Source: Gracilinema caldarium DSM 7334 (GTDB taxonomy: Bacteria > Spirochaetota > Spirochaetia > Treponematales > Breznakiellaceae). Taken from it: DNA of 64,000 nucleotides. A program made the position numbers and the translations under genes. The notes beneath the pieces were generated by a model. It was not told the origin of the DNA, did not search any database, and worked only from the letters and a program-made list of their open reading frames with translations. Of this stretch, positions 17,870 to 35,310 are shown in pieces. The stretch lies in NCBI RefSeq assembly GCF_000219725.1, contig NC_015732.1, positions 2,108,001 through 2,172,000 on the forward strand. The letters run 5' to 3'. Positions within the stretch are counted from its first letter, which is position 1. Every line of letters starts with the position of its first letter.

Positions 17870-18678
17870 GTTTCAATCCACGCCCCCCGAGCGGGGAGCG
17901 ACTCAATCAATCATTGATAGATTGATTGATTGAGAAGTTTCAATCCACGCCCCCCGAGCGGGGAGCGACTAAAGTTTTATCGGCATGCAAGGACCGGTCC
18001 GATGTTTCAATCCACGCCCCCCGAGCGGGGAGCGACATACGTTATATGGACGACTTCATTGTCTTAAATGTTTCAATCCACGCCCCCCGAGCGGGGAGCG
18101 ACATTAACGACGAAGGAGTGTTATGGCTTATTGACGGTTTCAATCCACGCCCCCCGAGCGGGGAGCGACGAACAGTTGAGGTAATATCGGCTGATCTTGT
18201 TTATGTTTCAATCCACGCCCCCCGAGCGGGGAGCGACCGGTAGTATCGGCGGAGTATGACGGTACCGTATGGTTTCAATCCACGCCCCCCGAGCGGGGAG
18301 CGACTATACACCTTAATAATAAATGTTAAGATGTATGAAGTTTCAATCCACGCCCCCCGAGCGGGGAGCGACATGTAGACAGTATAAGGTAAAACCTAGG
18401 GAATTGTTGTTTCAATCCACGCCCCCCGAGCGGGGAGCGACAACCTTTATACCGCAACGACATAGCATAGGTGTATGTTTCAATCCACGCCCCCCGAGCG
18501 GGGAGCGACGGTTCAGCGCCTACATAGTAGGCGCTGAAAGGAGTGTTTCAATCCACGCCCCCCGAGCGGGGAGCGACCATCGATAGCTCAAGCTTATCAA
18601 CGGCGCATCCTGTTTCAATCCACGCCCCCCGAGCGGGGAGCGACGTCCCTACACTCCCTTAGCACTTTATCGGCAAGC

Positions 18679-19724
18679 GTTTCAATCCACGCCCCCCGAG
18701 CGGGGAGCGACTTGCTCCGGTTGTCGGTATGCACAAGCCTCGCTTGTTTCAATCCACGCCCCCCGAGCGGGGAGCGACACTTTATCGGCAAGCATTGCCT
18801 TGCTTGCCGATAGTTTCAATCCACGCCCCCCGAGCGGGGAGCGACAAGATATTCCTCATATTCCCGCAAGGCTTGTTTGCGGGTTTCAATCCACGCCCCC
18901 CGAGCGGGGAGCGACCGGCTATGCAAGCGGTATCGTATCAAACCTAGGGTTTCAATCCACGCCCCCCGAGCGGGGAGCGACGGTTCAGCGCCTACATAGT
19001 AGGCGCTGAAAGGAGTGTTTCAATCCACGCCCCCCCGAGCGGGGAGCGACCATCGATAGCTCAAGCTTATCAACGGCGCATCCTGTTTCAATCCACGCCC
19101 CCCGAGCGGGGAGCGACCTGTAATTCTTTGGGCTTCACTTTGTACTTTTTGCGTTTCAATCCACGCCCCCCGAGCGGGGAGCGACCTGACGAGCAAGCAG
19201 TATCAAAGCAGATCGATGCGTTTCAATCCACGCCCCCCGAGCGGGGAGCGACTGTAATTCTTTGGGCTTCACTTTGTACCTTTTGCGTTTCAATCCACGC
19301 CCCCCGAGCGGGGAGCGACCATAGCATGCTATACATACGTTAAGTATAGCTGATGTTTCAATCCACGCCCCCCGAGCGGGGAGCGACTTTTTATCAGAAA
19401 CGTGGTTTAGTAGTTTCGGACGTTTCAATCCACGCCCCCCGAGCGGGGAGCGACTAATATATAGTATCGGTATTACATAGTTGCCGATGTTTCAATCCAC
19501 GCCCCCCGAGCGGGGAGCGACAAGAATGGACTTTACAGGACTTGCTTTTCTACTTAGTTTCAATCCACGCCCCCCGAGCGGGGAGCGACCTGTAATTCTT
19601 TGGGCTTCACTTTGTACTTTTTGCGTTTCAATCCACGCCCCCCGAGCGGGGAGCGACCTGACGAGCAAGCAGTATCAAAGCAGATCGATGCGTTTCAATC
19701 CACGCCCCCCGAGCGGGGAGCGAC
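18679..19724 (-). repeat. CRISPR internal duplication, copy 1
   Basis: A block of 15 spacers with repeats on both sides, from the spacer starting TTGCTCCGG to the one starting CTGACGAGC, recurs in identical order at 19825-20869. Copy 1 is 1 bp longer because one repeat has an extra C. Within the block two further spacer pairs (starting GGTTCAGCG/CATCGATAG and CTGTAATTC/CTGACGAGC) also occur elsewhere, showing repeated rearrangement. Confidence 0.95.
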
Positions 19725-20869
19725 ATACGTTATATGGACGACTTCATTGTCTTAAATGTTTCAATCCACGCCCCCCGAGCGGGGAGCGACATTAACGACG
19801 AAGGAGTGTTATGGCTTATTGACGGTTTCAATCCACGCCCCCCGAGCGGGGAGCGACTTGCTCCGGTTGTCGGTATGCACAAGCCTCGCTTGTTTCAATC
19901 CACGCCCCCCGAGCGGGGAGCGACACTTTATCGGCAAGCATTGCCTTGCTTGCCGATAGTTTCAATCCACGCCCCCCGAGCGGGGAGCGACAAGATATTC
20001 CTCATATTCCCGCAAGGCTTGTTTGCGGGTTTCAATCCACGCCCCCCGAGCGGGGAGCGACCGGCTATGCAAGCGGTATCGTATCAAACCTAGGGTTTCA
20101 ATCCACGCCCCCCGAGCGGGGAGCGACGGTTCAGCGCCTACATAGTAGGCGCTGAAAGGAGTGTTTCAATCCACGCCCCCCGAGCGGGGAGCGACCATCG
20201 ATAGCTCAAGCTTATCAACGGCGCATCCTGTTTCAATCCACGCCCCCCGAGCGGGGAGCGACCTGTAATTCTTTGGGCTTCACTTTGTACTTTTTGCGTT
20301 TCAATCCACGCCCCCCGAGCGGGGAGCGACCTGACGAGCAAGCAGTATCAAAGCAGATCGATGCGTTTCAATCCACGCCCCCCGAGCGGGGAGCGACTGT
20401 AATTCTTTGGGCTTCACTTTGTACCTTTTGCGTTTCAATCCACGCCCCCCGAGCGGGGAGCGACCATAGCATGCTATACATACGTTAAGTATAGCTGATG
20501 TTTCAATCCACGCCCCCCGAGCGGGGAGCGACTTTTTATCAGAAACGTGGTTTAGTAGTTTCGGACGTTTCAATCCACGCCCCCCGAGCGGGGAGCGACT
20601 AATATATAGTATCGGTATTACATAGTTGCCGATGTTTCAATCCACGCCCCCCGAGCGGGGAGCGACAAGAATGGACTTTACAGGACTTGCTTTTCTACTT
20701 AGTTTCAATCCACGCCCCCCGAGCGGGGAGCGACCTGTAATTCTTTGGGCTTCACTTTGTACTTTTTGCGTTTCAATCCACGCCCCCCGAGCGGGGAGCG
20801 ACCTGACGAGCAAGCAGTATCAAAGCAGATCGATGCGTTTCAATCCACGCCCCCCGAGCGGGGAGCGAC
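19692..20869 (-). repeat. CRISPR internal duplication, copy 2 with joined ATACG/ATTAA spacers
   Basis: This copy begins with the two spacers ATACGTTAT and ATTAACGAC, also found at 18037-18136, and then continues with the 15-spacer block. Relative to the first copy it lacks 542 bp (18137-18678, eight spacers). It therefore arose by segmental duplication plus a repeat-repeat deletion, not by new acquisition. Confidence 0.93.
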
Positions 20870-21410
20870 AACCAAGCGGCATTCCACGGGGCAGAAAGAA
20901 TGTGTTTCAATCCACGCCCCCCGAGCGGGGAGCGACTGTAATTCTTTGGGCTTCACTTTGTACCTTTTGCGTTTCAATCCACGCCCCCCGAGCGGGGAGC
21001 GACGTAATTCTTTGGGCTTCACTTTGTACCTTTTGCGTTTCAATCCACGCCCCCCGAGCGGGGAGCGACGGCGCCATCTGGAGTTAACCGCGTCCGTAGT
21101 GTTGTTTCAATCCACGCCCCCCGAGCGGGGAGCGACGACAGGATAACGATTTAGCTTTTTGTAATTGCTTGAGTTTCAATCCACGCCCCCCGAGCGGGGA
21201 GCGACCATTGGTTGCATTGCAGGATTTATACGGAGTGTATGTTTCAATCCACGCCCCCCGAGCGGGGAGCGACCAAGGTCCGCCGCCGTTTTTCCAATCG
21301 ACGCAAGTTTCAATCCACGCCCCCCGAGCGGGGAGCGACACCATTCTTTGCCTTGAGCGCAGATACTTCACTAGGTTTCAATCCACGCCCCCCGAGCGGG
21401 GAGCGACGTC

Positions 21411-23059
21411 GGGCTTCCTGAAAAACAAACAACTCTTTACAAAAGAAGCAAATACAGAGATAATCTCAATAAGAAGTGCACGGAAGAAAGGGGTAAGGCC
21501 TTAAAAAGCGTGCACTTTACTATGGGGTAACGATGTATAAGGAAAAGGAACAGGTACCTGAGTTTGAAGACTTTTATGTACCCTTCGGAGGACATTTACG
21601 AGAAGATAATCGATGGGTACGATTAGCCGCAATTATTCCATGGGAAGAGATAGAAGCTGAATATAAAAAATGTTTTTCAAAACGAATTGGAAGAACAGCC
21701 AAGACCGTACGGCTCGCCTTGGGATCATTATTGATAAAAGAGAAATTACAATTAACAGATGAAGAAACGGTAGAAACAATACGAGAGAACCATTACCTGC
21801 AATATTTTTTAGGATATGAATCTTACAAAGATGAAAAACCCTTTGATCCAAGCATGATGGTTCATTTTCGAAAACGGCTTGGACCTGATGCAATAGCAAA
21901 GATAAATGAGTTGATAGCGAAACGGTATCAAGAACAGGTAGAAGCAGAATCTGAAAAAAAACAGAACAAAGAAAACCAAAAGGATGACCATGATCATGGA
22001 AATCGAGGGCAACTCATTATAGATGCCACGTGCGTCCCCCAGGATATCCGGCATCCCCATGATGTCACTTTATTGGATGAAGCGCGAAGGAAAACAGAAA
22101 AGATAATTGATACGTTATATGAAGCGAGTGAGCTCACCATAAAACCACGAACCTATAGAAAACAGGCCCGTATCAAATATCTCAATTTTATACGAGGGCG
22201 ACGAAGAACAAAAAAAGAAATACGCAGAGCGATTCGGACCCAACTCCAATACATACGACGTAATTTACGGACTATCAATGAATTACAAAACAAGGTTCCC
22301 AGTACAACGTTGAGTGCAAAACAGCGACGTGATCTTATCGTGATACATGAGGTTTACCGGCAACAGGTACAGATGTATAAGGGAAAGACCCATTCGATAT
22401 CGGGAAAAATCGTCAGTATCAGTCAACCCCATGTACGACCAATAGCCCGAGGTAAAGCAAAAGCGGCCTTTGAATTCGGAGCAAAACTATCAGCATCGAT
22501 GACCGAACACGGGATGATTTTTATAGATCGATTACAATGGGAACCCTATAACGAACAAGAAGATTTGCCAACACAAATAGAAAAATATAAGAGGCGATGT
22601 GGTCGATATCCGGAATCGGTGCATGCCGATAAAATATATCGGACACGAGCAAACCGAGCCTATTGTGAAGCTCGAGGAATACGATTGTCTGGACCACCCT
22701 TAGGCAGACCGATTAAAGAAACATTAGAGAATAAAAAGATAGTACGACAGCTACGAAAGATTCAAAGACTTGACGAAGCCATTCGACAAGCGATTGAAGG
22801 TGGCTTTGGATATATGAAACGAAAGTTTGGTCTTGGTACAATCTATGAAAAATTACGCGAAACTAGTGAAACAGCAATTATGGTATGTGTATTGCTGACC
22901 AACTGTGAAAAAATCCTGAGGGATCTTTTTATGCGCTTTTTATTTTTACTTGGTTTTAAACCTCATAAATCATATTTGAAAGTTTTAGTATACTAAATTA
23001 AACCCATTTTAACGTAAAAAAGTTTTGAAATATCATTTTTAGACATTTTCAGTAGGCCC
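21411..23059 (+). mobile_element. IS5-like insertion sequence inside a CRISPR spacer
   Basis: 1649 bp with imperfect terminal inverted repeats: GGGCTTCCTGAAAAACAAAC at the left, and GGGCCTACTGAAAATGTCTA as the reverse complement of the right end. The direct repeat GACGTC flanks it (21405-21410 and 23060-23065), a 6-bp target duplication. Removing the element and one GACGTC restores a repeat followed by a 34-nt spacer, exactly the usual size. It contains one transposase gene reading on the plus strand, opposite to the array. Confidence 0.93.
21533..22996 (+). CDS. IS5/IS1182-like DDE transposase
   Basis: 487 residues, apparently intact. The N-terminal DUF772-type domain is seen in LALGSLLIKEKLQLTDEETV and PFDPSMMVHFRKRLG. 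DDE-type residues are plausible in LIIDATCVPQDIRHPHD (Asp), SVHADKIYRTRANRAYC (Asp) and IRQAIEGGFGYMKRKFGLG (Glu). A basic linker separates the first and second catalytic blocks (about residues 195-270). GGGG lies 5 nt before the ATG. With good terminal repeats and a clean target duplication the element may be recent and active. The exact family name needs an ISfinder comparison. Confidence 0.9.
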   Translation: MYKEKEQVPEFEDFYVPFGGHLREDNRWVRLAAIIPWEEIEAEYKKCFSKRIGRTAKTVRLALGSLLIKEKLQLTDEETVETIRENHYLQYFLGYESYKDEKPFDPSMMVHFRKRLGPDAIAKINELIAKRYQEQVEAESEKKQNKENQKDDHDHGNRGQLIIDATCVPQDIRHPHDVTLLDEARRKTEKIIDTLYEASELTIKPRTYRKQARIKYLNFIRGRRRTKKEIRRAIRTQLQYIRRNLRTINELQNKVPSTTLSAKQRRDLIVIHEVYRQQVQMYKGKTHSISGKIVSISQPHVRPIARGKAKAAFEFGAKLSASMTEHGMIFIDRLQWEPYNEQEDLPTQIEKYKRRCGRYPESVHADKIYRTRANRAYCEARGIRLSGPPLGRPIKETLENKKIVRQLRKIQRLDEAIRQAIEGGFGYMKRKFGLGTIYEKLRETSETAIMVCVLLTNCEKILRDLFMRFLFLLGFKPHKSYLKVLVY

Positions 23060-23096
23060 GACGTCCTTTGCGATTTATTCTTGGGTCTCCTGGTCT

Positions 23097-25630
23097 GTTT
23101 CAATCCACGCCCCCCGAGCGGGGAGCGACAAGACAACGTCTGTCCTAACCTTTATGGCTTCGGCGTTTCAATCCACGCCCCCCGAGCGGGGAGCGACGTG
23201 CCTTGCTTTTTCCATTAACTGTTCATCAGTTAATGTTTCAATCCACGCCCCCCGAGCGGGGAGCGACCGACGAGATAGACGTAATAGTCCTTCCCAACCT
23301 CGTTTCAATCCACGCCCCCCGAGCGGGGAGCGACTAGCATACTCTTCTCCTCTCCTTACCCGAGTTGGGTTTCAATCCACGCCCCCCGAGCGGGGAGCGA
23401 CTTATATAAGTTTCCATCCATCGTACGGAGACGATGTTTCAATCCACGCCCCCCGAGCGGGGAGCGACCGTGGTTTCACTTTATATTGCCTACACAATCT
23501 ATGTTTCAATCCACGCCCCCCGAGCGGGGAGCGACATAAAACTAAATTATCGTCGCTATATACTGGATTGTTTCAATCCACGCCCCCCGAGCGGGGAGCG
23601 ACTCCCACACACGGGCCCACTGAACATCTTTTGGAAGTTTCAATCCACGCCCCCCGAGCGGGGAGCGACCCTTGCTTTTTCCATTAACTGTTCATCAGTT
23701 AATGTTTCAATCCACGCCCCCCGAGCGGGGAGCGACACTTTCCTCCTTGCAAATTATCCGTGTAGTGGTCGTGTTTCAATCCACGCCCCCCGAGCGGGGA
23801 GCGACAAGCAGTTGTTAGGCTTTTTCATTCAACAAAGGCGTTTCAATCCACGCCCCCCGAGCGGGGAGCGACGGAAATTTTAATGGTGCCCAGCTGCTCG
23901 CTGGGTGTTTCAATCCACGCCCCCCGAGCGGGGAGCGACATGCTGTGGTGGAAAACGCGCTGATAGATAAGGCCAGTTTCAATCCACGCCCCCCGAGCGG
24001 GGAGCGACAACCCTTCCGGGGCTCCAGGCGTGTTCATTGGGGCGTTTCAATCCACGCCCCCCGAGCGGGGAGCGACCTGCTGGGCGCCAGGCTCAGCCCA
24101 AGATACAGCCAGTTTCAATCCACGCCCCCCGAGCGGGGAGCGACTGATACTTATCTGTCGTCCATATCACGACACCGTCGTTTCAATCCACGCCCCCCGA
24201 GCGGGGAGCGACCCAGTTTTTTAGGAGGAGCAATCCCTCCGTTGCGTTTCAATCCACGCCCCCCGAGCGGGGAGCGACATTCGTTTTTGGGGTCCCAGTC
24301 ACCACCCCATTCGTTTCAATCCACGCCCCCCGAGCGGGGAGCGACCTGGATTACCGGCGCAGCGGCCGGCAATCCAAAAAGTTTCAATCCACGCCCCCCG
24401 AGCGGGGAGCGACGGCGGGATAACGATTTAGCTTTTTAGCATTGGTTGTTTCAATCCACGCCCCCCGAGCGGGGAGCGACCAGGTGTATAAAAAAGTATA
24501 CACCTACTGTATGAAGTTTCAATCCACGCCCCCCGAGCGGGGAGCGACAAAATCATATATTGCTAAACAATCAATTAACCGGCGTTTCAATCCACGCCCC
24601 CCGAGCGGGGAGCGACGGGCGTAGGAGGGCGTATGCCTAACGATAACAACGTTTCAATCCACGCCCCCCGAGCGGGGAGCGACGGGCGTAGGAGGGCGTA
24701 TGCCTAACGATAACAACGTTTCAATCCACGCCCCCCGAGCGGGGAGCGACGCCTTTATAATGCAACGACATAGCGCAGGTGTATGTTTCAATCCACGCCC
24801 CCCGAGCGGGGAGCGACATAGTATACTATACATATGTTAAGTACGGTTAATGTTTCAATCCACGCCCCCCGAGCGGGGAGCGACAATATTTGGCAACAGT
24901 TAACGTGACATTTTTTGTGTTTCAATCCACGCCCCCCGAGCGGGGAGCGACGTGCTATGTCGTTGCAGTATAAAGGTTTCCAGAGGGTTTCAATCCACGC
25001 CCCCCGAGCGGGGAGCGACGCTGGATTACCGGCGCAGCGGCCGGCAATCCAAAAGTTTCAATCCACGCCCCCCGAGCGGGGAGCGACGGGCAATGGAGGG
25101 CGTTATGAAAGGTACTATTCAGGTTTCAATCCACGCCCCCCGAGCGGGGAGCGACCTACCTCTATATCCTGCAATGATTTATTTTTTGGAGTTTCAATCC
25201 ACGCCCCCCGAGCGGGGAGCGACACCTTGAGGACTACGAGTGCGACTTGCGGCGTACGTTTCAATCCACGCCCCCCGAGCGGGGAGCGACAATATTTGGC
25301 AACAGTTAACGTGACATTTTTTGTTGTTTCAATCCACGCCCCCCGAGCGGGGAGCGACCGATTTAGATTTTTAGCATTAGTTGAAATCCAAAGTTTCAAT
25401 CCACGCCCCCCGAGCGGGGAGCGACCGGCACCACGGTCGGTTCCATAGCCGCCGGGATGCTGTTTCAATCCACGCCCCCCGAGCGGGGAGCGACGATCTT
25501 GTTCACTCGTGAAGGCCGCCTTGCTGATAGTTTCAATCCACGCCCCCCGAGCGGGGAGCGACGTCCAAGGGCTGGGCGAGCGGTAAAAAGGTTACGAGTT
25601 TCAATCCACGCCCCCCGAGCGGGGAGCGAC
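23097..25630 (-). CRISPR. Type I-C CRISPR array, leader-proximal part (38 repeats)
   Basis: By manual count there are 38 repeats of 33 nt identical to those in the other half, with 37 spacers of 33-37 nt. With the split spacer at the IS, the whole array had 91 repeats and 90 spacers. The leader and cas2 lie at the high-coordinate end, so the newest spacers are near 25600. Only one exact spacer duplicate is present (24617-24650 and the next, both starting GGGCGTAGG). Several spacers are shifted or diverged versions of one another or of spacers in the older half, so the same targets were sampled repeatedly. Confidence 0.98.
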
Positions 25631-25834: not shown

Positions 25835-26125
25835 TTAAAAAAGCAATGGTCCTTCTATATCAAAACTATGATTAACACCTATATGCTCGACTTTGTATTT
25901 ATAATTATCACCCAAATAATAATACCGTATGCTATCATTTTCTTTATCGATAATTTTTGCAAGTTGATGTTGTATTTTCTTTAACAACATAGTATCAATG
26001 ACACATTCAAAAACTGAATGTTGTACCCTTTGACCATAATTTTCACACACCTTTGCTACTTGTCGAAGCCGCCGACGGCCTTCAGGTGTTTCAGTATTAA
26101 CATCATAAGTAATTAGAACCATCAT
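25835..26125 (-). CDS. cas2: Cas2, type I-C
   Basis: 96 residues from the chosen ATG: MMVLITYDVNTETPEGRRRL has the conserved Asp of the ferredoxin-like fold, followed by YGQRVQHSVFECVID and a C-terminal NHSFDIEGPLLF. It forms the Cas1-Cas2 integrase complex that inserts new spacers. A longer frame to 26179 would overlap cas1; the chosen start has GGGAG about 10 nt upstream and gives the normal length. It lies 16 bp after cas1 and is the last gene of the operon, next to the leader. The base composition is AT-rich like cas1 and cas4. Confidence 0.95.
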   Translation of the reverse strand: MMVLITYDVNTETPEGRRRLRQVAKVCENYGQRVQHSVFECVIDTMLLKKIQHQLAKIIDKENDSIRYYYLGDNYKYKVEHIGVNHSFDIEGPLLF

Positions 26126-26141
26126 AATCAGAAAACTCCCA

Positions 26142-27173
26142 TCAGTTCCAGAAAAATGGCGGATATCCATCAATATCATTTCGTAAACTCTTTGCTAAAA
26201 GCATAGACTGAACGTAAGGTAGTAAACCATATGGTATTAACTCTTTTAAATAGGGATGTGTCAGTGTTTCCTGCTTTTTCTCCTGCCAGCTCTGTAACAC
26301 GGTTTTCCGTGTTTCCTCATCCATAAGAACTCCACCGCTTTCTTTTTTAATAAAACCAGAACCTGTTATTTGCTTTCTATTTACTAAAGACAGGGCCAGT
26401 CTATCTGCTAAAACAGGACGAAGTTCTTCCATAATATCCAAGGCAAGGGAAATTCTTCCTGGTCTATCTTGATGTAAAAAGCCTACATAAGGATCGAGCC
26501 CCACCGTTTCTAAAGCTGACGCAACCTCATAAGCAAGCAGTGTATATAGAAACGATAATAGCGCGTTCATATTATCCATTGGTGGTCTTCGTGATCGATC
26601 AGTAAACAAAAAATCTTCCTTTTGTTGTAGAATTAATTCATTAAATACTCCAAAATAAGCTCTGGCGGCACTGCCTTCAAAGGCAAATAAATCTGATAGA
26701 TTGTTACAATCAGGAATCATTCGCAACACTTCTTTTAAAAAATCTGATGCTTCTTTAATTTTCTTAGTATTTACAACCATTTCATGGTCCCGTAAAGCCC
26801 GCTCCAAAACTTTTCTACAGTTTCCAATCTTCCCTAAAAGAAAGGCTTTACAATAGGGCAGGCTTTCTTTTATAGCTTCTGAAACTGCGTATTGCTTTTT
26901 ACGCAATAGAACATTTCCATGCACAGGACCAATAATACGAGCCTGAAATTTGCCATAGGGTGTTAAAAAACAAAGCCCAATATTTTTATCAACACAGGCT
27001 TTCATTAATGCTGGACTTACCCCTATATAATTAAAACATACTATGTTTTCAATATTATGAAGGGGGATCTTGGTTCCTACAGTTTCTTCCTTTTTAATTA
27101 CAATCGTTTCGCCATCCAGAGCAACAAAAACATCAGGACTTGTAATGTAAATGGTGTTAAGAAGTTTTTTCAT
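26142..27173 (-). CDS. cas1: Cas1, type I-C integrase
   Basis: 343 residues, the usual length. The N-terminal beta domain begins MKKLLNTIYITSPDVFVALD. The catalytic domain has Glu in FAFEGSAARAYFGVF, His in YVGFLHQDRPGRISLALD and acidic residues in IMEELRPVLADRLALSLVN, matching the metal-binding Glu/His/Asp set. It carries out the transesterification that integrates spacers. The start overlaps the end of cas4 by 17 bp, so the two are translationally coupled. The gene appears intact, so adaptation should be possible. Confidence 0.97.
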   Translation of the reverse strand: MKKLLNTIYITSPDVFVALDGETIVIKKEETVGTKIPLHNIENIVCFNYIGVSPALMKACVDKNIGLCFLTPYGKFQARIIGPVHGNVLLRKKQYAVSEAIKESLPYCKAFLLGKIGNCRKVLERALRDHEMVVNTKKIKEASDFLKEVLRMIPDCNNLSDLFAFEGSAARAYFGVFNELILQQKEDFLFTDRSRRPPMDNMNALLSFLYTLLAYEVASALETVGLDPYVGFLHQDRPGRISLALDIMEELRPVLADRLALSLVNRKQITGSGFIKKESGGVLMDEETRKTVLQSWQEKKQETLTHPYLKELIPYGLLPYVQSMLLAKSLRNDIDGYPPFFWN

Positions 27174-27849
27174 TTTTTAAGTCCTCTATATAATTGTTGA
27201 TATAGGTACTTACAGACTCGCGCTTATTCAAAATATCGGGCAAACAAATATCCTGTAGAGAACATGACTTACAGGCTTTTGTTGGCTTTACCTTAGGTGT
27301 ATATTTTCGTTTGCAATAAGCATGCATCTCTTCTGCAAGATCTTTAACAAGAGATCTTAATTCTGCTGAAAACACTACTGGCTCTCGATGTCTGGTTTGT
27401 CCATAGTAGATAGACCCTTCAGAAATTGATGTCGAAAGCATTTCTTCAAGACACATGGCCTGTGCACAGAGTTGAACTTCATCAACCGGTTCTCGCTTGG
27501 GCTTACCTCTTTTATATTCTATAGGGTATGGTCTATAGGTTGTTCCCTTATCAGATATATAAACACCATCCTTATCTTGCATAAACTCGACCATATCACA
27601 AATGCCAGTTATACCTAATGTATAGGATGCCACTGGCACTGATCGACTAATAAAAACATTCTTTCGGCTTTCTGAAATATAAGGATCATCCACCCGTTCA
27701 TGTAATAAATGTCCTTCAAAAGTAAATTGGTTGTCTTGCCACTGGTTTTCAATATAAATAAGGGCCCACTGACGTCTGCAGAAGAGAAAGTGCTGGATCC
27801 CTGAAATATGTAATAAATCTTCGGCAGTATATTCAGTGGGCATAATCAA
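27157..27849 (-). CDS. cas4: Cas4 exonuclease, adaptation module
   Basis: 230 residues of the RecB-like Cas4 family. The first iron-sulfur Cys is in FLFCRRQWALIYIE. RecB-type catalytic residues are visible in GICDMVEF (Asp) and PIEYKRGKPKREP (Glu and Lys). The remaining three cysteines are CKSCSLQDIC near the C-terminus. Cas4 trims prespacers and selects the PAM, working with Cas1-Cas2. It starts 38 bp after cas7 and overlaps cas1. It is complete for the family. Confidence 0.95.
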   Translation of the reverse strand: MIMPTEYTAEDLLHISGIQHFLFCRRQWALIYIENQWQDNQFTFEGHLLHERVDDPYISESRKNVFISRSVPVASYTLGITGICDMVEFMQDKDGVYISDKGTTYRPYPIEYKRGKPKREPVDEVQLCAQAMCLEEMLSTSISEGSIYYGQTRHREPVVFSAELRSLVKDLAEEMHAYCKRKYTPKVKPTKACKSCSLQDICLPDILNKRESVSTYINNYIEDLKNEKTS

Positions 27850-27887: not shown

Positions 27888-28757
27888 TTAAAGCATTTTT
27901 ATTAATGTAATTCCCTCGGGCACTTTAGTTTCATCAACTAAAATTTGGTAATCATTAAAACTTCTAGGAACAATCGAATTATTCTTTTTATTAGCAGTAA
28001 TTAAATCAAAAAGTACATGAGCAGGCGCGTTTCCTAATTCAGAATCATGCTTAAATACAAATAATTTTCGAGTAGCCATTTTTCCTCGTGCAGCAGACCT
28101 GTCATGCTCGAACATATTGATTAGGGCATCCCAGAATAGTTGTAAATCTTCTTCTGAAAATCCTGTTCCTTTGCTTGGATCATTGGCGAGTCTGGCAGAG
28201 ATATATCCTTCGGCTCGGTATAAACCATAGGGGACGATGTGTTTACGTCCCATGGTACGTTCTTTTTCTGCTTCTTCAATACGTGTGACAGTTTGTCGAG
28301 TAATTGTTACTTCTTGTTGTACAATCGGGTCGATACTACGAGAAAAGTTGATTTGAACTGGGCCACGAACCTGGCCACAGTTATCTCCGGTAGTCATCAC
28401 TGCCCCAAAGGTACGAACATCAAAAAAATTGGCGCAAATCCAAGCACGAGCACGTTGTATATCATCAATTTTAACATTTTTATCACCAGGGTTCAATTGC
28501 AATGCTAAATAAGCTTCTGCATGATTTTGGTTTAAAGGAATCCCTTCCTTTATGTAAATTCTATAACCTGGTGCATCACCTTTAACCATTTCCACATAGT
28601 TTCGAATTTTTCGTTTTAGACATACGTCAGTAACAATACCATACCCTGTTTCGGGGTCAATGCGCGGCATGTTACCCGCATCGGGGTCTCCATTCGGATT
28701 TCCATTTTCTACATCATAAAAAAGAACAAACTCGTAACGATTAGAAATACCAGCCAT
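27888..28757 (-). CDS. cas7: Cas7c (Csd2), Cascade backbone
   Basis: 289 residues from the chosen ATG. Diagnostic Csd2 text is present: NRYEFVLFYDVENGNPNGDP near the start, GYGIVTDVCLKRKIRNYVE, then FFDVRTFGAVMT and GQVRGPVQINFSRSIDP. Several copies coat the crRNA in the I-C interference complex. A longer frame begins 30 bp upstream, but the chosen ATG has GGAG 9 nt before it. It sits 97 bp after cas8c and 38 bp before cas4. The composition is markedly AT-rich compared with cas5c and the Cas3 part of the operon. Confidence 0.97.
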   Translation of the reverse strand: MAGISNRYEFVLFYDVENGNPNGDPDAGNMPRIDPETGYGIVTDVCLKRKIRNYVEMVKGDAPGYRIYIKEGIPLNQNHAEAYLALQLNPGDKNVKIDDIQRARAWICANFFDVRTFGAVMTTGDNCGQVRGPVQINFSRSIDPIVQQEVTITRQTVTRIEEAEKERTMGRKHIVPYGLYRAEGYISARLANDPSKGTGFSEEDLQLFWDALINMFEHDRSAARGKMATRKLFVFKHDSELGNAPAHVLFDLITANKKNNSIVPRSFNDYQILVDETKVPEGITLIKML

Positions 28758-28854
28758 AATTACTTCTCCTTCATTCATAATATTCATATTTCTATTACTC
28801 TAACAGAGTAATAAACAATTACAGATTGTTATCTTTATTAGATATCAATTCGCA

Positions 28855-30735
28855 TTATTCACCTCCATTACTATCCTTTTTTGGGTAAAACGCTGAGCGT
28901 TGATGGTAGTATCCCAGGATAAATACCCCCTGTTCTTCGAGTGTAAACCGTTGTGGAAATGGTTGTGCTTCTAATTTTCCCAATAGAGCCTGGATATTTT
29001 TATCAAGCGTTCCACCATACTCAGCTTTTCCTGTCCAGTGATTGGAAAGCCGTAACAATGTTGGGAAAACACTTGCTGGGGTTGCACAAGCAGAGGTAAA
29101 GTAGCGATCCTTTATTGTGGCATTTATGTTTTGTCCAATAGCTTCAGCCTGCGCTTTTTCTAGCCATGCGAATAATCGCCCCAACACATATGCGGGATGA
29201 TCATAACTTTCATTTAGTGACATCTGTAGAGCCTCCTTATAATTATTGTTATCGCCTTGTCGGCGAAACTTACGTATGAGATGCGCCTTTATGTAGGCAG
29301 CGCGAATGTAGTTAATTTTGACGCTGCGCCTTCTGCCCTCGTCGTTGGTTTCATCCGTGTCGTGGCGGATGCGGTTGATGAAGGCGGCGTACAAACCTTC
29401 GGGGTAGGGCGCACCCGTGAGAATTGCCCGCATGAACGCCCCGCCCAGCAGCGACCAAGACTGTTTAACTTCATCGTCCCGCCGTGTCACTTTGGGTGAA
29501 ACACACTCTGCAAGGATACGATAAGGGGAGATATAATCAGACTGATTGGCATATTCCTTCACGATTTTCAAATCTTCATAATGCTGCATGATGCGCTCGG
29601 CAAACACACCAAAGGGTTCGGTGAGAAAAAAGCGTATTGCCAGTCGCGATACATTGGAAGCCAATCCAAGCACATAGAAACGTGTGTCCTTATCCAACTC
29701 TTTGCTCAATGCGGCTAGGTCTATCGCTTTTCCATGTTGCACCGACTCAGCCACCTCACCCAGGGTCCTTTCGCCTTCTTTGTCGCGTTTTCGCTTCTCT
29801 TTTGTCTCTTCGGCGGCTACGTCTTCCACCTGCTGGTACTCTGGATTCAGAAGGGCGTAGAAGGCGTCTGAGTAGCGTTTATCGGCTGTGTCTGCCCAGT
29901 AAACAACGGTGGTGTCGCCAAGAAAAATGGGTCGATTGGGATTTTGTTCTGATAGGAGATAGTTAAGCGCTACACCGTAGCCTGAAGCCACACGCTGACT
30001 AACGGGTGAGTTTAACCCTTGTCCCTTCAAACGGTTATAAGACTCGTAAGCCCGTTCATTAAAACTGACCAACGACGCACCTGTCGGTTGAGCTCCACGC
30101 ACCCGTTTGATACTTGGATGCAGTCTGGCAATTGGTTCAATTTTGCCTGTCACTAAACATTGCATTTCGACGGCTTCCTGACCAAGTTTGTAATCTTCCC
30201 ATGCACGTCTGACTTCTGGATCCTGAATCACATCTTTACCTTGCAGCTGAAATATTAAACTACCGCCTTCAAGCAAACCTTCCAATTGTTGAGCAATTAC
30301 AGGGTGTTGTTGAGCTTTTTGGGGGTTATGTTTTTGTAAGAAAGCGACAACGGCGCGAGCAGCATCACTATTTGCATGGGACAAAATTTCAATGTTAAAA
30401 TCACGAAAAGCTTCAAACCGCTTTTCTGCGTATTTCGGGTCTTTGGCTTCTTTCTCTGAAATTCCTAGCACATACGGAACGGTATCGCAAAGAAAATTAG
30501 CCACAATCCCCGATGATTTCTTTACTTGTTCAGGCACAATCATACGGCGGAAGTTACGTTCCTTTTTACCATCGGGAGACTTGGTCGTAAGTGGTATGAT
30601 ATCCAGCAAATCGCCGTTTGAAGAAAGGTTAAGCGCAAAACTTACGTTTGCCGCACTGTAGCCAGGAGCCGCAATCTCGACTTCAGGGTCATCCAGCAAA
30701 ATCTTATAGTAATTATAAAGTGCCTGCAAAATCAT
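28855..30735 (-). CDS. cas8c: Cas8c (Csd1), large Cascade subunit
   Basis: 626 residues, normal for Csd1. The start MILQALYNYYKILLDDPE and central text YGVALNYLLSEQNPNRPIFL and TTVVYWADTADKRYSDAFY are typical, as is SYDHPAYVLGRLFAWLEKAQ toward the C-terminus. It recognises the PAM and recruits Cas3; I-C genes of this type also encode an internal Cas11-like small subunit from the 3' end. The ATG overlaps the cas5c stop by 4 bp. Composition changes inside the gene around 29235: the stretch upstream is richer in CGC/GCG words, and the last 375 bp and cas7 are AT-richer. Confidence 0.96.
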   Translation of the reverse strand: MILQALYNYYKILLDDPEVEIAAPGYSAANVSFALNLSSNGDLLDIIPLTTKSPDGKKERNFRRMIVPEQVKKSSGIVANFLCDTVPYVLGISEKEAKDPKYAEKRFEAFRDFNIEILSHANSDAARAVVAFLQKHNPQKAQQHPVIAQQLEGLLEGGSLIFQLQGKDVIQDPEVRRAWEDYKLGQEAVEMQCLVTGKIEPIARLHPSIKRVRGAQPTGASLVSFNERAYESYNRLKGQGLNSPVSQRVASGYGVALNYLLSEQNPNRPIFLGDTTVVYWADTADKRYSDAFYALLNPEYQQVEDVAAEETKEKRKRDKEGERTLGEVAESVQHGKAIDLAALSKELDKDTRFYVLGLASNVSRLAIRFFLTEPFGVFAERIMQHYEDLKIVKEYANQSDYISPYRILAECVSPKVTRRDDEVKQSWSLLGGAFMRAILTGAPYPEGLYAAFINRIRHDTDETNDEGRRRSVKINYIRAAYIKAHLIRKFRRQGDNNNYKEALQMSLNESYDHPAYVLGRLFAWLEKAQAEAIGQNINATIKDRYFTSACATPASVFPTLLRLSNHWTGKAEYGGTLDKNIQALLGKLEAQPFPQRFTLEEQGVFILGYYHQRSAFYPKKDSNGGE

Positions 30736-31400
30736 CGCCGCACCTCCTTGGCTAGTTCACGTACGTCTATAATCCCGTCTTGCATGATGGCGTGATAAAA
30801 CATCGGCTTGATGTCGCGCGGATTGGAAAAATCCAGATCATAGAGCATCCAGCCGAAATCGCGCTTGCCCTTCATCGGGCTTTTGGGGATGTTGTTCCTG
30901 TCCTCGATGGTGGTCACTGTGGCGGGGAACTCGCGGGTCCCCAGGCAGGGGGCGTGAAAGTGCTGTCCCTGCCGAAGACGACGTAAAATAATATTGTAAT
31001 GCTTTTCCTCTGTTTCACCAGAACCGATCTTTTCGGTTAACTCGAAGTGGGCTTCGATGACATAATCCACATTCTTCAAGACCATTGCGGCGCGCTGTTG
31101 GCGGGTTTCAGTGGTGGCGATGTAGAGCGGTTTGTTTGTGCCATTCATCACCTGTAAAACATTATCCACCGAAGCCTTATCGCTCACCTCGTTACGGCGA
31201 ATATTGGTAAACTCGATGTCGCGCAGGACGTGGATTGTATCTATCACCCAGCGGATAGCAGGTTTCCAATAGACTGCCTCGAGAATACCACGCGCCGCCG
31301 ACGGAGTGATGACGTCGTAACTGACACGCTCCACTTTCATTTCAGGACGGGTAAACAGGGCATATGGGCCCTGTACACGGATGGTTATGCCATATCCCAT
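30732..31400 (-). CDS. cas5c: Cas5c (Csd5) crRNA-processing endoribonuclease
   Basis: 222 residues. GYGITIRVQGPYALFTRPEM is the conserved Cas5 N-terminus, followed by SYDVITPSAARGILEAVYWK, where Cas5d-type catalytic residues (Tyr, Lys/His) are expected, and CLGTREFPATV. In type I-C this protein replaces Cas6 and cuts the repeat at the base of its hairpin. AGGAGG 8 nt before the chosen ATG fixes the start; a slightly longer frame exists. It follows cas3 after 60 bp and overlaps cas8c by 4 bp. It is GC-richer than cas7-cas2. Confidence 0.96.
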   Translation of the reverse strand: MGYGITIRVQGPYALFTRPEMKVERVSYDVITPSAARGILEAVYWKPAIRWVIDTIHVLRDIEFTNIRRNEVSDKASVDNVLQVMNGTNKPLYIATTETRQQRAAMVLKNVDYVIEAHFELTEKIGSGETEEKHYNIILRRLRQGQHFHAPCLGTREFPATVTTIEDRNNIPKSPMKGKRDFGWMLYDLDFSNPRDIKPMFYHAIMQDGIIDVRELAKEVRR

Positions 31401-31460
31401 TAATACAACCTCCTTATACAAGATTTTTTTAGGATTTGTTTCAGAGTCTCTTTTAAAATC

Positions 31461-34400
31461 TTAAAACAGTAAACCATCACCACCTCCATTTTCAGGTATT
31501 ATAAGTCCTTTATCAAAATCATAATATTCTTTCATGTAATCAGGGTTAAGAACGTAATACGTGTCGTCAATGGTCAAAATCACTCCTTTTGAACTGAGTT
31601 TGTCGAACTCGGTCGTGAAAATCGAAACCGTGTAGGGCTGAAGTTTCCGCAGGGTAAAAAATGGATAGTCAGTGCTTTTCAACTCTTCAATCAGACTTTG
31701 TGCTTCTTCATTGTAGGGGATAATCACCGTCTCGGTCGAATCTTCAATAATTTGGAATTCCCGCGCCGCGGTCTCGTACTTGAACCTGGCGTCTGCGCTG
31801 TCGAAACATTCCATAATGCGCTTGACATCGAACGAGATGTTCGGGTCTTGCAGATCATACAGCCGCTCAAAAAATGCACTGATTACAGGAATGGAAATCG
31901 GCTCTGCGGCGTGGTCGCGCAAGACCATGCGGGTGACTTCTGCCGATTGTTTCAGGAATGAGGGCGTTTTTTTGATAAACTCTGACTTCGGCTCGAAGAC
32001 GAACATCTCGCTCACGCCGCGCCGCATCTCACGGTTCACACGTCCCGCCGCCTGATTGATGGAATCCAGCCCCGAGAGAGCGCGGTAGCCAACGGGAAAG
32101 TCTAGGTCAATGCCCGCTTCCATCACCGTGGTCGAAACCACACGGCAGGGTTTTCCGCTTGATAGGCGTTCTTTGATTTCTTCCAGTTTGGTGCGGCGGT
32201 GGGCAGGACACATCAACGTCGAAAGGTGAAAATTCCCCTCGCCTTCCAAGCCACTGAAAAGTCCGCTGGCGTGGCGGCGGGTGTTGACGATGCACAGGGC
32301 TTGCTCGTGCGCGTTCAAGCGGGTGATCAGGTCCTCGTCGGGAAGCGTCCCCACATACTTTACTTCCACTCGCTTGTAGAAGTTGAACAACTCATGCGGG
32401 TTTGGTGCGAGTTCCCGCACTTCGGCATTTTCGGGTAAAAAGCGTTCCAGCCCAGGCTGGGTGGCGGTGCAAAAGACCGCGCTCGCACCGTAGTTCGTCA
32501 CCAGTTCCCATACAGCCGCCATCGCAGGGCGCATGTACTCCCGCGGCAGCATTTGGGCTTCGTCGAAGATAATCACGCTTTTGGCGATGTTGTGCAGTTT
32601 ACGGCAGCGGGATGACCTGTTGGCAAACAGCGACTCAAAGAACTGTACGTTGGTCGTGACTACAATGGGAATATCCCAGTTTTCCGCCGCCAGTTTGAGT
32701 TTGGCAAGCGCGCTGTTGGTGCGGTCATCGGGGTTGTCGCGCTTCTTGCCCTCCCAGTCAAAGTTGGAGTGATGCTCCAGCACCTGCCCTTCACCGAAGA
32801 TGGTTTTGAACACCTTGGCATTTTGCTCGATAATGGTGGTAAACGGGATGACGTAGATGACGCGCTTCAAGCCATGCTCGGCGGCGTGATGCAGTGCAAA
32901 TGCCATTGAAGCCAGCGTCTTGCCGCCGCCAGTGGGTACAGTGAGCGAGAAAAATCCAGGCTTTTCATTCATGCCTTTTGCGATACAGGCTTGCAGTATC
33001 TCATTGCGCTTGTGGTTGATGTCACTGCTTGGATTTTCAAACTGCTTCAGGTACGCGCCCATCTTATCTCGCAGGGTTGTGATGTCGTCATATCCGCCGC
33101 GCGGCTTTGAGCCTTTCATGTAGGTTTCGGTTTCCTGAAAGTCGGCGTCCACAAGTGCAGAGTAAATCATGCGCACCAGAAAAGAAAGCGAAAACCCAAA
33201 ATAATCTTTCGTAGGCTTATCGGGGAACACCCGCAGGCGCAGCGGCTGAATATTCAAGCGTTTCGGGAACGAAAGTGTGTACAAATCTACTTCGCTCTTG
33301 TACGCGCTGTAATCGGGCAGTTGGTTTTTCAAGCGCGCGCAAACAGTTCCGCCCTCCAGGTCGGTTTCATTGCCGTAATCGGGCAAGCCTGTGTGATGTC
33401 CCATAATGGGATACACCAGTAAGTGAGCGAATACTTCCTGCGGCGTCCCTTTGAGCAATGCCTTGAGTTCTTTTGCTCCAGCGGTTGAATGCTCCACCCG
33501 CGGACCTGTCCCTTCCAGCCGTTTTTGAAACGCGTCGGAATATTTACCCAGATCGTGAATCAGCCCCGCGATATACGCCAGTTCTGCGATATTGGCATCA
33601 GCGCAGAAATCGCGCGCCATTTCCGCTGTTTTTTTCAGATGTTCGATGAGGGGCTGCCAGTCTTCGCGGTCTTCACCCTCTCGACGATGGGCAAAAAAGG
33701 ATGACTTCGGTCCGCTAATATTCCCAATTCCATAAAGTTTTGCAAGCTTCCTCACTTCTCGTTCAAGGGTCTCCCGCAGGTACTTTGGCTCTAGTACTTC
33801 GCAGTCTGCACCCCAGCCCCGGATCCAGGGAAGCATTTCCTGTGGTTCTGCAATCTCAGCTTCCCATAAGAGCGAGCCATTATCCTGTTCTGTTATAATT
33901 TGGGTAGGATGCCACAGACTTTCTTTCACCCGATAGGCAACCCGTGGCGTAAAGCGCAGTAGTATCCTTTGGGGTTCTTCATCGGTGTACCAGATTCCCC
34001 AGGCTTCAGCTAAGAGGGAGCGAGGATCAAAATCCTTTGGAATAGTATAGGGTTCATTTGTTTTTTCTGCCCGTTCAATTCGTTCAACCTTATAGGTCCG
34101 TAGTGTTCCTGGCGGTTCGCTTAAACAGATGAGCTGGGTTGTTTGTCCAATTGCATAGGGTTCAATGAAGTAAGGGCTAACAAGATACATAAAGGTTTTA
34201 CCCATCTTTTCACTGCGGTGCCAGATTTTAACTTTTCGATGATTTGCCCAACCTTCTGTTAAGAGTTCCATGACGCGAACATAGTTGGGATCATCTTTCT
34301 GAGAATCGTCATCCATCATGTCAGCAGCAATACTCACATGATGACCTATTTGATCAGCCCATCGCCGCATCGATAGACTTAATTTTCTTAACGCCGATGC

Positions 34401-34703
34401 GGTATGGGGATTCTTACGATCCATACGGGTGGCCAGAAGCCTGCTTGCAAGATGCAAAGCCATTGCTTCATGCAGGGTTAAATTGAGATTGATAAGACTT
34501 GCACTTCTATCTATTTTTAGTTTACCACCATCAATATCATCAATATAAATAGAAGCTGGTAGATCCATGAGATCCCTATTAATCGTTGAACGATCCACCT
34601 GGAGTTTCCTTGCAATTTCTGCTTGGGTAAGTCCTTCTGGATGAGCTAAAAGAAGATTTTCAATTTGTAAGAGCCTTGTGGCCTTATTTTCTGCTCTATT
34701 CAT
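31461..34703 (-). CDS. cas3: WYL-domain regulator fused to Cas3 nuclease-helicase
   Basis: 1080 residues in one uninterrupted frame. Residues 4-60 are a DeoR-like winged helix (LTQAEIARKLQVDRSTINRD). Residues about 150-325 are a WYL plus WCX unit of the kind found in CRISPR-linked regulators (PYFIEPYAIGQTTQLICLS, AWGIWYTDEEPQRILLRF, SLWHPTQII, PWIRGWGADCEVLEPKYLRE). From about 332 a complete Cas3 follows: HD nuclease (FFAHRREG, HDLGK at 383-387, EHSTAG, MGHHTG), Walker A PTGGGKT at 590-596, DEAQ at 714-717, CTATQ, and QAAGRVNR at 884-891. Cas3 unwinds and degrades Cascade-bound DNA; the front half should bind DNA and perhaps a nucleic-acid ligand. Separate regulator and Cas3 genes are the usual state. 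The start used has GGGG 7 nt upstream. Confidence 0.93.
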   Translation of the reverse strand: MNRAENKATRLLQIENLLLAHPEGLTQAEIARKLQVDRSTINRDLMDLPASIYIDDIDGGKLKIDRSASLINLNLTLHEAMALHLASRLLATRMDRKNPHTASALRKLSLSMRRWADQIGHHVSIAADMMDDDSQKDDPNYVRVMELLTEGWANHRKVKIWHRSEKMGKTFMYLVSPYFIEPYAIGQTTQLICLSEPPGTLRTYKVERIERAEKTNEPYTIPKDFDPRSLLAEAWGIWYTDEEPQRILLRFTPRVAYRVKESLWHPTQIITEQDNGSLLWEAEIAEPQEMLPWIRGWGADCEVLEPKYLRETLEREVRKLAKLYGIGNISGPKSSFFAHRREGEDREDWQPLIEHLKKTAEMARDFCADANIAELAYIAGLIHDLGKYSDAFQKRLEGTGPRVEHSTAGAKELKALLKGTPQEVFAHLLVYPIMGHHTGLPDYGNETDLEGGTVCARLKNQLPDYSAYKSEVDLYTLSFPKRLNIQPLRLRVFPDKPTKDYFGFSLSFLVRMIYSALVDADFQETETYMKGSKPRGGYDDITTLRDKMGAYLKQFENPSSDINHKRNEILQACIAKGMNEKPGFFSLTVPTGGGKTLASMAFALHHAAEHGLKRVIYVIPFTTIIEQNAKVFKTIFGEGQVLEHHSNFDWEGKKRDNPDDRTNSALAKLKLAAENWDIPIVVTTNVQFFESLFANRSSRCRKLHNIAKSVIIFDEAQMLPREYMRPAMAAVWELVTNYGASAVFCTATQPGLERFLPENAEVRELAPNPHELFNFYKRVEVKYVGTLPDEDLITRLNAHEQALCIVNTRRHASGLFSGLEGEGNFHLSTLMCPAHRRTKLEEIKERLSSGKPCRVVSTTVMEAGIDLDFPVGYRALSGLDSINQAAGRVNREMRRGVSEMFVFEPKSEFIKKTPSFLKQSAEVTRMVLRDHAAEPISIPVISAFFERLYDLQDPNISFDVKRIMECFDSADARFKYETAAREFQIIEDSTETVIIPYNEEAQSLIEELKSTDYPFFTLRKLQPYTVSIFTTEFDKLSSKGVILTIDDTYYVLNPDYMKEYYDFDKGLIIPENGGGDGLLF

Positions 34704-34728: not shown

Positions 34729-35310
<582 letters not shown>

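Follow-up and report, generated by a model that had tools for sequence, protein, structure and literature searches.

A type I-C Cas3 of the thermophilic spirochaete Gracilinema caldarium fused to its own candidate transcription activator

Fusion of a WYL domain to Cas3 (HD plus helicase) in some type I CRISPR systems has been mentioned by Makarova et al. 2014 (PMC4012209), who have also suggested that effectors are at times regulated directly; the single sentence given there to the fusions speaks of neither operator, promoter, cassette exchange nor a relationship to DriD. DriD of Caulobacter is a stand-alone WYL regulator with a DNA-damage regulon, an activator switched on by single-stranded DNA (ssDNA) whose site, ATACGAC(N7)GTCGTAT, overlaps the -35 position at a fixed distance from the -10 element, and its own gene is not among its targets (PMC12340889). 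PafBC is also activated by ssDNA, through two WYL arginines, R211 and R214 of PafB being needed for ssDNA (PMC11804915). CapW and BrxR, which belong to CBASS and BREX defence operons, are wHTH-WYL repressors with an inverted repeat upstream and are not fused to an effector. A similarity network of myxobacterial WYL proteins has been found to bring together those of different CRISPR subtypes (PMC11237760).

We have analysed a window of 64,000 nucleotides, the whole stretch of DNA considered here, in the closed 3,239,340-bp genome of G. caldarium DSM 7334. The minus strand of the window carries a 1080-aa open frame (31461-34703, from the ATG at 34703), in which HTH_11, WYL, WCX, HD, cas3_HD and cas3_core were all matched (Pfam/NCBIfam). 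From the N-terminus, the protein is composed of a winged helix-turn-helix (wHTH; residues 1-66, 34506-34703; domain search, alignment and model), whose recognition-helix R38 is invariant across the I-C fusions, a WYL domain (residues about 144-213, 34065-34274; domain search and alignment), the match to which is weak (E 6e-4, just under the Pfam cut-off), a WCX domain (residues about 244-321, 33741-33974; E 2.5e-18), a linker defined by alignment (residues 326-338, 33690-33728), the Cas3 HD nuclease (residues 339-525, 33129-33689; cas3_HD E 3e-26) and the Cas3 helicase core with PTGGGKT, DEAQ, TAT and QAAGRVNR (31986-32945; cas3_core E 3.6e-35), the last two being supported by domain search and alignment. 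In the alignment of relatives, the nuclease residues H339, H383, D384, H405, H436 and H437 are invariant and the helicase motifs PTGGGKT, DEAQ, TAT and QAAGR are conserved. The Cas3 half matches the I-C-like Cas3 structures 8ZNS and 8G9U over its residues 2-663 (E 1e-111); these share the HD and helicase and differ in having no N-terminal regulator. A first-pass annotation, made from the letters alone, had claimed an intact WYL regulator joined to an intact Cas3 in one frame, and these domain matches and motifs bear it out. The junction that it had placed at residues 326-332 (33700-33730) is in the right boundary region but lies slightly downstream of there: the end of the WCX is near residue 325 (nt 33729), and conservation in Cas3 starts with H339 (33687-33689). 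The linker between them, about 13 residues in the G. caldarium protein, is variable in sequence among relatives and usually 10-15 residues long, being longer in two loci (L037 and L047). The AlphaFold model of the full-length fusion was poor (pLDDT 62, shallow alignment). With WYL and Cas3 in one unbroken frame of a type I system, the gene is a fusion of the kind noted by Makarova et al. 2014 (PMC4012209); the first-pass annotation had known of no described WYL-Cas3 protein.

The fusion is present in a related spirochaete of the same family (G017), whose homologue is 75% identical over its full length, has no stop and begins at the same ATG. Uninterrupted fusions at 52-76% identity have been found in many Anaerolineae, and one also in an Ignavibacteriales MAG, by a scan of genome contigs. 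The frame is open at an upstream TTG (34817) too, but this start was rejected on account of the G017 homologue, which begins at the ATG. An internal start yielding free Cas3, which had been foreseen as a possible objection, was also rejected: no usable start was found at the WCX/Cas3 boundary, the nearest in-frame codons being GTG 317, which has no well-placed Shine-Dalgarno sequence, and ATG 362, which is already past H339. Between G. caldarium and G017, dN/dS is low in both halves (about 0.06 and 0.10, with dS saturated), and both look to be under purifying selection as judged from these two sequences.

The fusion gene heads an operon cas3-cas5c-cas8c-cas7-cas4-cas1-cas2, which we regard as a complete type I-C operon because it is followed on the minus strand by genes for Cas5c (30732-31421), Cas8c/Csd1 (28855-30735), Cas7/Csd2 (27888-28787), Cas4 (27157-27849), Cas1c (26142-27173) and Cas2 (25835-26179), all assigned by profile matches; Cas5c, Cas8c, Cas7 and Cas1c are above the cut-off for the I-C models (NCBIfam). 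A CRISPR array with 90 identical 33-nt repeats, found by repeat search at 17870-25630, adjoins cas2; we take its repeat to be of the I-C type, and its minus strand was inferred from the I-C repeat end (GTGGATTGAAAC). An insertion with a transposase-like gene of 487 aa (21533-22996) interrupts the array at about 21443-23096, several spacers and blocks in the array are duplicated, and some spacers are near-copies offset by 1-3 nt, for example eight versions of TGTAATTCTTTGGGCTTCACTTTGTAC[TC]TTTTGC, for which a search gave no viral target. A search for the viral source of the most repeated spacer gave no exact match in viral contigs and, in phages, no more than a weak one. As to the origin of the locus, the Cas3 of the window nests with fused Anaerolineae I-C Cas3s in a nine-member group with 100% support (the trees were built by a quick method, with SH-aLRT support only), is up to 85% identical to this group and lies at a great distance from the I-C Cas3s of most spirochaetes. 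A transfer from Chloroflexota is suggested by this.

The model of the regulator half (pLDDT 90) has the wHTH-helical-WYL-WCX fold of the WCX-bearing regulators of DriD/PafBC type. Its best fold match is DriD (Foldseek E 1e-16; Z 16.8 spanning 193 residues with 9CU3; 8TP8 aligned over residues 5-327), above CapW and BrxR (Z 11-13), and DriD is also its best sequence match among solved structures. Over its whole length the regulator half corresponds to DriD (PDB 8TP8, 9CU3 and 9PFQ), from the wHTH through the helical linker and the WYL to the WCX. K205 and R208 of the present protein fall at the positions of the PafB R211/R214 motif by motif register, not by superposition; across 51 relatives, R208 is invariant and K205 nearly so.

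Comparison of upstream sequences points to a candidate operator at 34740-34766 on the minus strand, ATTTTGTTGCATTACCTGCAACAAAGT followed by TATAAT, which has 11-bp arms with one mismatch and a 5-bp spacer; its core, GTTGC-ATTACCT-GCAAC, occupies 34745-34761. The -10 element TATAAT (34729-34734, minus strand) lies exactly 10 nt past this core and is accompanied by no -35 match. GTTGC-N7-GCAAC was found within 500 nt upstream in 64 of 96 loci, as against none of the 96 for a scrambled palindrome and 0.065 loci for shuffles, and only three such sites occur in 419 kb of other sequence from the same loci; many of the 32 loci that have no full site retain a half-site in the same phase. Of the three operator matches in the home genome, only that at 34745-34761 is outside an open frame; a regulon beyond the cas operon was rejected, the two other matches being inside open frames. 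In eight other genomes, four of which were picked knowing that the site was present, each WYL-cas3 locus inspected had an operator upstream. The unbiased test was that of 396 Anaerolineae genomes, which gave 122 matches to the operator plus -10, 55 of them followed on the same strand, within 1.2 kb, by a WYL gene.

A -10-like hexamer with A at position 2 and T at position 6 lies exactly 10 nt downstream of each full site in the collected loci (65/65); the stretch in between is nearly free in sequence and carries little information, and TTGACA matches at the -35 position of these 65 sites occur only at chance level. This conserved spacing may partly reflect descent of the cassette described below, though the intervening bases have diverged. 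The layout, an N7 inverted repeat over the -35 position at a fixed distance from the -10, is that of DriD, with the half-site GTTGC in place of ACGAC. It is not that of CapW and BrxR, whose operators lie over the -10 or downstream of the promoter, whereas the core here ends 10 nt upstream of the -10. Anaerolineae also have a second class of promoter, in which just the upstream half-site is kept, at the same phase; of 29 such cases, chosen because they have a -10, 26 show a TGn extended -10. The full site is then about 340-390 nt upstream, ahead of a gene for a wHTH of 66-75 aa which is absent from the G. caldarium and G017 loci. In many cassettes of Anaerolineae (L033, L083, L085, L131 and others), the gene for this small single-domain wHTH stands between a full operator and the WYL gene; the protein often has the C-terminus SEDxxGGLWPF, and is possibly a partner or an antagonist of the WYL regulator. 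On a 3.1-kb contig of G017 (C61; L191:190-206), a perfect operator followed at 10 nt by a -10 has also been found within a mobilisation-like gene, where it may be due to chance.

With a confidence only a little above even, we read the whole as a Cas3 that carries its own transcription activator: a two-in-one protein consisting of an N-terminal DriD-type activator (wHTH, helical region, WYL and WCX) and the C-terminal I-C Cas3 nuclease-helicase. The regulator half very probably binds the operator at 34740-34766, its GTTGC-N7-GCAAC filling the -35 position of its own promoter; we think it reasonably probable that it activates rather than represses, in which case the bound protein would help RNA polymerase to start the whole cas3-5-8-7-4-1-2 operon. 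For the effector, analogy with DriD and PafBC tips the balance slightly towards ssDNA. The source of this ssDNA would be invading DNA and Cas3 itself, so that a feed-forward loop would arise in which interference leads to stronger expression of the operon, and through fusion there would be one regulator for every Cas3. We have favoured activation of its own operon over repression because the nearest solved relative is DriD, PafBC is likewise activated by ssDNA, and K205 and R208 are at the arginine motif. Points counted against it are that an operator over a promoter can also repress, that DriD does not regulate itself, that 32 of the 96 loci have no full site, and that the WYL match is just below the Pfam cut-off. 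The proposal in the first-pass annotation that the fusion couples control of cas expression to the enzyme is supported, at the level of sequence, by a conserved candidate operator-promoter that travels with the regulator.

It is unlikely, though to be taken seriously, that the WYL half represses from the same operator, blocking RNA polymerase so that little Cas3 is made until a ligand arising from infection lifts the block, as with CapW and BrxR. Defence-linked WYL regulators studied to date are mostly repressors, CapW, BrxR and Sll7009 among them, the 11-bp arms and 5-bp spacer match the layout of the BrxR operator, and the -10 of the window is a perfect TATAAT. However, the sites of CapW overlap the -10 and that of BrxR is between promoter and gene, whereas a site on the -35 position with an invariable 10 nt to the -10 and no -35 element of its own fits an activator better, as does the nearest fold, DriD.

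To see how the regulator is distributed, loci of this WYL family were gathered by similarity to the protein of the window, and are therefore not a random sample, and the neighbouring cas3 was classified. When Cas3 is of the HD-first type (I-C, divergent I-C and I-E), 54 loci are fused and 19 split (54/73, excluding one duplicate and one non-adjacent case), whereas the HD-last loci, which are I-G-like by best NCBIfam match under its cut-off, one neighbouring Cas7 resembling I-A, include no fused and 31 split cases (Fisher p about 1e-13; independent pairs on the WYL tree 9:0, sign test p about 0.004). WYL being fused only to HD-first Cas3, the WCX always abuts the HD nuclease. WYLs beside HD-last Cas3 (L049, L050, L060, L118, L171 and others) often end in a conserved tail STLDDFFGG, which is perhaps a docking peptide in place of covalent fusion. 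In other spirochaetes (L102, L103, L104, L109 and L183), a separate and more distant WYL gene, about 32-40% identical, is roughly 70-170 nt upstream of an I-C cas3 without the GTTGC-N7-GCAAC operator, and stand-alone WYL loci with no recognised adjoining Cas3 (e.g., L187, L123 and L161) have mixed neighbours.

When Cas3 type is placed on the WYL tree, 41 label changes are needed against a minimum of 5, and close WYLs are found on different Cas3s: L033 (I-C), L085 (divergent I-C) and L125 (I-E) make up one such set, and L131 (I-G-like) and L149 (I-E, contig-truncated) another. Between loci of different subtypes, DNA similarity extends from a variable distance upstream of the WYL gene (zero where a contig ends, otherwise up to about 400 nt) to the end of the WCX and ceases there, the Cas3 genes in such pairs having short DNA matches at most. 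Of paired loci within one genome, some have the cassette in common (G590 and G575) and others not (G375 and G512). Promoter and regulator thus move together as a cassette that is cut at the WCX/Cas3 junction and passes among I-C, I-E and I-G-like systems, and the clustering across subtypes in PMC11237760 agrees with this exchange.

These distributions bear on what the fusion itself does. In Anaerolineae, the two genes of most split I-C pairs share an overlap of 1-26 nt, which indicates that fusion is loss of the stop/start overlap, and the fusion state switches about 20 times on the WYL tree; both would be expected if the overlap was lost between translationally coupled genes without any new function, the halves acting as when separate. 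We give this neutral origin the same low probability as repression; it can be compatible with the activator reading, and it is opposed by the excess of fusions over splits in HD-first systems and by the absence of fusions in HD-last systems, where the genes abut as closely. Doubtful to a somewhat greater degree is a direct allosteric gate, in which the WYL half would sense a ligand such as ssDNA and switch the attached Cas3 nuclease or helicase. The restriction of fusion to HD-first Cas3 (54/19 versus 0/31), with the WCX against the HD nuclease, speaks for such a gate, as do the suggestion of direct effector regulation in Makarova et al. 2014 (PMC4012209) and, according to the account in PMC9122601, the PIF1 of Thermotoga elfii, where unwinding is coupled to ATPase by an ssDNA-binding WYL, and a WYL protein that affects Cas13d. 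The T. elfii protein resembles the present one in that WYL is joined to a helicase and differs in that this helicase is unrelated. We know of no DNA-binding HTH fused to it. Against a gate, HTH and operator have been retained, many I-C loci carry the same regulator as a separate gene, and close WYLs are on different Cas3 subtypes, which argues that no dedicated interface has co-evolved; control of Cas3 activity, the other coupling offered by the first-pass annotation, is not favoured because regulators that are closely akin occur on unrelated Cas3 subtypes or free beside cas3. An assembly error or a frameshift joining two genes at the junction, which that annotation had named as a danger and for which no evidence was found, is practically dismissed because the same unbroken architecture has been found in G017 and in many independent genomes, including many Anaerolineae.

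What is new here seems to be the wiring, namely the operator-promoter layout and the cassette exchange, and not the fusion itself; a matching promoter switch and its swapping among CRISPR systems appear to be undescribed in the literature. Tentatively, and with clearly less than even confidence, we propose that a mobile cassette, comprising the operator, an activator-type promoter, often the small wHTH gene and an ssDNA-sensing HTH-WYL-WCX activator, has been exchanged among unrelated CRISPR subtypes and repeatedly welded to HD-first Cas3s, so that Cas3 would sense its own ssDNA product and switch on its own operon, a self-amplifying response in one polypeptide. Except in a few well-studied bacteria, little is understood of what switches on type I CRISPR operons, and a nuclease that carries its own candidate activator, with a binding site that can be recognised, makes regulation predictable from sequence and directly testable. 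If ssDNA is sensed, CRISPR interference would be linked to its own expression, which would help to explain why WYL genes recur by CRISPR loci. That a single promoter-regulator cassette is exchanged among I-C, I-E and I-G-like systems points to regulation as a plug-in module that evolves independently of the effector.
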